From assembly GCA_016198415.1 (NCBI GenBank), contig JACQIO010000014.1, positions 1 through 51,258 on the forward strand: a stretch of 51,258 bases of DNA, read 5' to 3'. A program made the position numbers and the translations under genes. Below the pieces are notes generated by a model that was not told the origin of the DNA, made no database searches, and worked only from the letters and a program-made list of their open reading frames with translations. Positions 36,944 to 50,935 of this stretch are shown here, piece after piece (the first letter of the stretch is position 1; each line of letters starts with the position of its first letter). Source of the stretch: Candidatus Berkelbacteria bacterium. GTDB lineage: Bacteria > Patescibacteriota > UBA1384 > JACPKC01.

Positions 36944-36981
36944 ACAACGCATTTGCCTACGATCGTAGGCAAATGCGTTGT
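36944..36981. repeat. 38-bp perfect palindrome, left copy
   Basis: ACAACGCATTTGCCTACGA|TCGTAGGCAAATGCGTTGT. Confidence 0.95.
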
Positions 36982-37001
36982 TTGATGGAGGGAGGGAGAA
37001 C

Positions 37002-37591
37002 TCAGAGCTGAAATCGTACCCGAAGGTTCTCATCACCATCGATCCGAGCCGTCTCAAAGAACAGGACACGCTGCTCGAGCTTGTACCGCTCTCGGAGCCA
37101 ATCGATCTCGTCGCGACATGGCCACGGACAGATCCAGGCCGAGTGCTGGATATGGACGAAGCCAAGTCGGGTCAGCGTAGCGCGCAACCGATCGCGATCC
37201 TCCCGCCGCTTCTCTGGGACGTCCCAGATCACCACCCGCCAGCGCCCGTCCCACCGCTTGGGCCGTTCGAGCTCGAGCGACTCCTCTTCAAAGGCTGGAA
37301 GAAAGAGGCGCGTCTTTGAGGTCACCGTCACGTGGTGCCTAAGCACCTGCAGGTACTCTTGGCGGCGAAGACGAGCGAGCGAGTCGCGGAGCGGAACTGT
37401 CGTTCGGACAGCCAAGGCATCTTCCCGTGCGCGTAGTCCCAAAGACGACGTTGGTCGAAGGCGACCGAACCCACCTCCTCCATGAACCGTGCGCATTCGA
37501 CGAGGATGAGTTTAGCGGTTCGTCCGAGCCCGCGCACTCGCTGCTTCAATCTCTGCCCTTTCCAATGCTGCTGATCTCGATCCCGCTCCAT
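37002..37591 (-). CDS. wHTH + PaaX-C/Cas2-like domain protein, reading frame broken at (CGAG)3
   Basis: C-terminal frame: KRWDGRWRVVIWDVPEKRREDRDRLRATLTRLGFVHIQHSAWICPWPCRDEIDWLRERY...NLRVRFQL. N-terminal frame (37328-37591): LKQRVRGLGRTAKLILVECARFMEEVGSVAFDQRRLWDYAHGKMPWLSERQFRSATRSL. One extra CGAG unit joins the two; GGGAGGG RBS before ATG 37591. Confidence 0.7.
37372..37383. repeat. tetranucleotide tandem repeat (CGAG)3 at the frame break
   Basis: A-CGAG-CGAG-CGAG-TCG read directly on + strand. Confidence 0.85.
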
Positions 37592-37632
37592 CGAGCCCTC
37601 CCACCAAAGCGTCCAGAGTTGCTACAGGGATC

Positions 37633-37670
37633 ATAACGCATTTGCCTACGATCGTAGGCAAATGCGTTAT
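37633..37670. repeat. 38-bp perfect palindrome, right copy
   Basis: ATAACGCATTTGCCTACGA|TCGTAGGCAAATGCGTTAT; 34-bp core identical to the left copy. Confidence 0.95.
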
Positions 37671-50899: not shown

Positions 50900-50935
50900 C
50901 ACCAAAGAGACGCGCTCAAGCGCGTCTCTTTGGTG
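50900..50935 (+). terminator. hairpin CACCAAAGAGACGCGC-TCAA-GCGCGTCTCTTTGGTG
   Basis: 16-bp perfect stem directly after the stop at 50884. Confidence 0.85.

Follow-up and report, generated by a model that had tools for sequence, protein, structure and literature searches.

Two perfect 38-bp palindromes enclosing a gene for a winged-helix protein with a Cas2-type fold probably represent one copy, itself probably dead, of a family of mobile elements of the ultra-small Patescibacteria, each about 700 bp long. We consider it likely that this family is a REP/RAYT- or IS200-like mobile element, the enzyme of which is the winged-helix and Cas2-fold protein instead of an HUH transposase. We also lean slightly towards the view that the family constitutes a new class of mobile DNA, i.e., an independently evolved REP/RAYT-like system in which a winged-helix and Cas2-fold nuclease, unrelated to the HUH, DDE, serine, and tyrosine recombinases, recognizes and spreads perfect palindromes.

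The palindrome-flanked unit in the window

The window, i.e., the whole 51,258-nt stretch of DNA analyzed here, is contig 34 of a Patescibacteria genome (738 kb, 83% complete), and its closest named relatives, judged by the window protein, are Patescibacteria assemblies. The first-pass annotation had described one minus-strand gene bracketed by two 38-bp perfect palindromes that share a 34-bp core, and a reverse-complement check bore this out, each palindrome being its own reverse complement (Table 1). A single arm base differs between the two and is compensated (T-A for C-G). The left site lies 20 bp from the gene end (37002) and the right site 41 bp from the start of the N-terminal frame (37591). 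At the same base composition, perfect loopless arms of at least 17 bp are expected about 1e-5 times per window, and a chance origin of the palindromes was therefore rejected. The gene is split by an indel over 37328-37591 and 37002-37496; this copy is therefore probably inactive, or the assembly is in error.

Table 1. Coordinates of the palindrome-flanked unit and its parts in the window
Feature	Position	Strand	Evidence or remark
Whole element (palindrome, gene, palindrome)	36944..37670	-	727 bp
Perfect 38-bp palindrome, downstream side, centre CGATCG, ACAACGCATTTGCCTACGATCGTAGGCAAATGCGTTGT	36944..36981	.	Covariance-model match, 41.7 bits
Perfect 38-bp palindrome, upstream side, ATAACGCATTTGCCTACGATCGTAGGCAAATGCGTTAT; 34-bp core common to both	37633..37670	.	
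C-terminal frame: remainder of the winged helix and PaaX_M/Cas2-fold domain (domain 37026-37259)	37002..37496	-	Pfam PF20803, 3e-25; NCBIfam cas2, 3e-4; short clade in tree
N-terminal frame: winged-helix region, out of frame with the C-terminal part	37328..37591	-	Alone, no Pfam match
Frameshift between the two frames (approximate place)	37380..37420	-	Frame comparison; decay or sequencing error

The claim that the palindrome core occurs nowhere else holds within the window and fails in the genome, which contains an exact copy of the 34-bp core (C9:3793), a 22-bp copy (C22:2141), and a copy with three mismatches (C1:3725), all with unrelated flanks. Although the core does occur at other loci, these are copies of one site family, as in REP systems. 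The same genome encodes two more PaaX_M genes. The first is followed, 104 bp past its stop codon, by a perfect 34-bp palindrome of another sequence; the second is a long form (defined below) without a palindrome. Elsewhere in the window (50900-50935), there is a further perfect palindrome of 36 bp, CACCAAAGAGACGCGCTCAAGCGCGTCTCTTTGGTG, which is intergenic, lacks the CGATCG centre, and is possibly a terminator.

Linkage of sites to short-class genes

Of 55 genomes of the class, 38 were found to contain PaaX_M genes in a class-level search (up to 11 copies per genome), and 106 loci were examined. The proteins have a short (about 165–225 aa) or a long form (about 235–260 aa), and the two clades are split in the tree with 100/98 support, with one long protein placed among the short ones. 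Using a criterion of at most 5 mismatches in 18-bp arms and a distance of at most 200 bp from the gene, a quasi-palindromic site was found beside 73 of 79 short genes (on both sides of 51), beside 3 of 27 long genes, and in 17 of 461 background windows. Even though these counts ignore shared ancestry, short and long genes contrast strongly, and members of the short clade come from many families. Flanking of homologs by palindromes, which the first-pass annotation had put forward as a check, is thus true of the short class.

Within 100 bp of short genes there are 2.9 near-perfect palindromes per kb, compared with about zero beyond 200 bp; such palindromes are missing from about half of the short genes (42/79), which have imperfect dyads only. 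Independent of palindromy, the similarity of the upstream to the downstream repeat exceeded the 99% null for 61 of 76 short genes and for 0 of 25 long genes, the repeats being mostly in direct orientation. Paired sites of one gene are alike and sites vary from gene to gene, with site and protein divergence being weakly correlated (Mantel 0.14). The 17 two-sided members, including the window element, range from 642–888 bp (median 708).

Short-class proteins were also found in named Patescibacteria, Microgenomates, and Daviesbacteria records (L010-L013). Direct repeats that occur in pairs and have a core similar to TCCGATCGTGG are seen in L013 and, less clearly, in L012, and therefore the family probably extends beyond the window's class.

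Presence, relocation, and dispersal

Comparisons among relatives revealed elements that are present in one genome and absent from the same place in another. In G048, an element sits between radA and a penicillin-binding-protein gene; G049 and G051 lack it at this place, where G050 carries a different element. DNA on either side of the L111 element is conserved in relatives, with matches that leave out the element itself, and the G044 element (L077) is absent from the equivalent place in G045, a member of the same genus, where the neighbours are 160 bp apart. Empty sites, anticipated in the first-pass annotation, therefore exist in relatives. Between two species of one genus (L092 vs L104), the match is confined to the element; long-class genes keep matching flanks, and the short pair L082/L088 has a locus common to both. 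Presence/absence at conserved loci is thus accompanied by one element at different loci, both below nucleotide resolution: sister genomes are about 70–80% identical, so that exact junctions and target duplications are unreadable, and neither an excision nor a circle nor an insertion was observed at the nucleotide level. No consistent target duplications were found. As judged from these sequence comparisons, mobility and site specificity of the elements are well supported. In G045 (C51), a different inverted-repeat element, ACTAGTGTTGTATAATT...AATTATACAACACTAGT, fills an otherwise empty site (L201, about 1341-1500), and further short repeats of this genome are also multi-copy.

Solo copies of the site, without a gene, are scattered in genomes that carry the gene. 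A covariance model of the site has matches in 19 of the 55 class genomes and in 39/334 genomes of a phylum sample, and within the class the palindromes found by the model track short genes (17/8/2/28; Fisher p 2e-6). Solo sites are far more similar to gene sites from the same genome (0.76) than to size-matched foreign sets (0.50; p 3e-10). Exact site families comprise 4 copies in G284 and 8 in G161, where a repeat of about 100 bp (L207-L214) consists of a 38-bp palindrome, a spacer of about 50 bp, and a second hairpin (GGCTCAACCG...CGGTTGAGCC); this repeat is a REPIN/MITE-like non-autonomous unit. The notion that only the palindrome moves fits the examined copies in G284, G043, G044, and G000 and fails generally because of the units with a second hairpin shared in G161; the mobile unit is therefore not always the bare site. 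A separate arrangement is found directly 3' of a short gene in G043 (L058, C33; gene-oriented 639-1260), in which 7 copies of the element's own imperfect dyad, GTGTCACTAGTTGGCCGCTATAGCGGATAGGTCGTTACG, recur with a period of about 96 bp. The spacers of this array are G/T-rich and diverged, and its CRISPR-like layout is unexplained.

The distribution of the sites bears on three other explanations. According to the first, the unit is an autoregulated repressor of the PaaX type, the palindromic operators of which would lie both beside its own gene and, in the form of solo sites, at the genes of a regulon. PaaX proteins are repressors, the element protein combines a winged helix with the PaaX fold, and one site does lie upstream of the start codon. 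In most cases, however, the second site lies past the stop codon, the mainly intergenic solo sites are flanked by tandem (19) and convergent (9) genes more often than by divergent ones (4) when genes are called by a simple ORF rule, and elements are absent or relocated, thus differing in position, between sister species, for which reasons the operator reading fits poorly. The invariant Cas2 Asp is, moreover, limited to the flanked class, and an operator is not expected to show compensated drift of whole arms. We consider an autoregulator unlikely, and its regulon part was rejected because the site positions, under the same gene calls, have no promoter preference. Of the two possibilities initially raised for a self-contained unit, mobile or autoregulated, the checks thus favour the mobile one.

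A second explanation is that the palindromes are REP elements spread by Y1/RAYT (HUH) transposases, the PaaX/Cas2-like gene being merely among them. Y1_Tnp genes are present in 29/55 genomes, and Y1 and palindrome numbers are correlated (rho 0.52), but in partial rank correlations with palindromes short genes reach 0.61 and Y1 genes 0.11. Furthermore, G017 has these palindromes and short genes and lacks a Y1 gene, the model has no match in G032 or G033 despite their 10 and 8 Y1 genes, and 20 Y1 loci are without a loopless palindrome. Because the number of Y1 genes adds little beyond short genes and their own loci are without such palindromes, this origin is largely refuted and we regard it as highly improbable. 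Y1/RAYT genes of these genomes can be bounded at both ends by 3-nt-loop hairpins of their own (L195, L197), so that two different palindrome systems coexist.

Third, a host defence or toxin-like gene may merely have been inserted at, or recombined between, palindromic sites that are moved by another factor. Direct repeats permit deletion or spread via recombination, and Cas2/VapD relatives are nucleases (PMC10491678), but the site sequence is gene-specific on both sides and recurs in solo copies of the same genome, which speaks for a joint action of gene and site and leaves this explanation quite unlikely.

The protein, known systems, and a proposed mechanism

The resemblance of the C-terminal part to the PaaX C-terminal/Cas2 fold, suggested in the first-pass annotation, was confirmed: the matching domain is PaaX_M, the central Cas2-like domain of PaaX, and the predicted fold matches both PaaX and Cas2. 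The best PDB match is E. coli PaaX (8a39, E 1e-4), followed by regulators and then by Cas2 and Cas1-Cas2 entries (probability about 1.00, with weak E-values). An Asp occupies the Cas2 catalytic position in 79/79 short and 9/26 long proteins, and the family conserves D, Q, and S, the Q and S being placed on the Sso Cas2 stretch from a reading of the profile alignment alone. We infer a catalytic role of the short-class protein; alternatively, it may be purely DNA-binding, its PaaX relatives being repressors. The Asp pair has a central role in catalysis by Cas2/VapD proteins, and mutation of Q33, Y34, or S35 slightly reduced the activity of Sso Cas2 (PMC10491678).

Several short proteins pass the NCBIfam cas2 cut-off, and some are therefore probably called orphan Cas2 in public annotation, whereas scores against the NCBIfam PaaX equivalog (TIGR02277) are 16–43 bits vs a cut-off of 264.55. 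An HUH motif was found in 1/79 short proteins, and neither a Pfam Y1 match nor an invariant Tyr was found in family proteins. Cas1, already reported missing around the window gene, is absent from the class genomes (0/55); membership in a CRISPR-Cas system was rejected on this basis despite the Cas2 fold and the catalytic-type Asp. A phmmer search of one protein against the PDB returned nothing useful and a fold search of viral structures nothing significant. A viral or plasmid origin was rejected, given that IMG/VR (three single-protein queries) and phage records (one query) contained no relatives and that plasmid matches are distant (23–35% identity; 6/8 annotated as PaaX-family regulators).

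The elements look like a second, independent invention of REP palindrome/transposase systems, in which the RAYT domain shares a ferredoxin-like fold with Cas2. Features in common with REP/RAYT systems (REPtrons, TnpA_REP) and REPINs are a palindrome-bordered gene whose palindromes are also dispersed in the genome as gene-less intergenic copies, lineage-specific sites, and the pairing of some palindromes about 60–100 bp apart (PMC8266576, PMC3116915). The element protein, however, is of winged-helix and PaaX_M/Cas2 fold with an invariant Asp in place of the HUH motif and Tyr, and the sites are loopless dyads with a CGATCG-like centre. The conserved tetranucleotide (mostly GTAG) beside REP/RAYT palindromes was not found on inspection of the flanks of exact copies.

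IS200 is about 700 bp long with one small gene, as are the present elements. The ends of IS200/IS605 elements are palindromic, and perfectly so in some members such as IS200 (PMC8266576); the elements described here also have palindromic ends, their repeats mostly share one orientation, and no target duplication was observed. Unlike IS200/IS605, they encode no Y1 TnpA transposase or other Y1/HUH enzyme, their palindrome also stands alone in many places, and it has no hairpin loop. Because the anatomy is REP/RAYT- or IS200-like and the defining HUH/Tyr test failed, the family is apparently a separate, undescribed kind; no description was found in the literature covered, which did not extend to preprints and most subscription papers.

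PaaX regulators (PF20803 PaaX_M) have the same succession of winged helix and Cas2-like domain and provide the best structural match, but the element protein lacks the PaaX C-terminal part, falls far below the equivalog cut-off, and has an invariant Cas2 Asp and a palindrome-flanked, multi-copy gene. Cas2/VapD proteins share the Asp at the catalytic position, followed by conserved Q and S, and differ in having neither the N-terminal winged helix nor the palindromic sites, nor is the element protein accompanied by Cas1. Telomere resolvases (protelomerases) likewise have a palindromic DNA target, which is turned into hairpin ends (PMC3558466); no related enzyme was recognized and no linear replicon seen, and the analogy would be mechanistic only.

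We propose that each element encodes one winged-helix and PaaX_M/Cas2-fold protein, expected to be a dimer, between two dyad sites of about 38 bp. The dimer would recognize its own dyad, with the winged helices reading the outer arms and the CGATCG-like centre positioned at the Cas2-type Asp pair, and would nick or cut it. Triggered by cleavage, either the site alone or the gene enclosed by two sites could be copied into new intergenic places. If one arm were copied via a hairpin or fold-back, the palindromes would remain perfect during sequence drift. If this is right, a Cas2-fold protein would be the mobilizing enzyme of its own element, adding one more enzyme type to the short list of those moving DNA in bacteria and explaining some 'orphan Cas2' and 'PaaX' annotations in Patescibacteria. 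The family would also be a test case for Cas2 folds without Cas1, with a bearing on the origin of Cas2, and a model for how perfect long palindromes are made and kept in cells. That the element is a living relative of the supplier of Cas2 and dyad repeats to early CRISPR adaptation is speculation to which we assign a low probability.

The structure of the sites fits a dyad read at the centre and outer arms: in imperfect sites, mismatches avoid the centre and positions 14-17. Among the near-perfect gene-side sites, 35 have a CGATCG centre, and A/T predominates at positions 9-11. Differences within a site pair are compensated (7/7 in L066, 5/5 in L098), such that each site stays self-complementary. 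Such changes would also be explained by an RNA-level system, in which the repeats would form long hairpins at the ends of the transcript and the Cas2-fold protein would act, in a Cas2/VapD-like manner, as an RNase or binder of its own mRNA; some Cas2/VapD folds are RNases (PMC10491678). Against this, gene-less copies occur in many contexts, including convergent intergenic regions, and mismatches on the sense strand have no bias (57 G.T vs 66 A.C). The RNA hairpin reading was rejected on the latter ground, and we consider an RNA-level system very unlikely. Paired sites that differ yet stay self-complementary, together with solo sites that in some cases reach 80 or 120 bp by taking in flanking DNA, suggest that one arm is copied from the other. 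The extended sites, both in G038, are perfect palindromes of 120 bp (L155, 1458-1577) and 80 bp (L137, 1478-1557) made of the site core and flanking DNA, which suggests that one arm was copied outward or that they are assembly artefacts.
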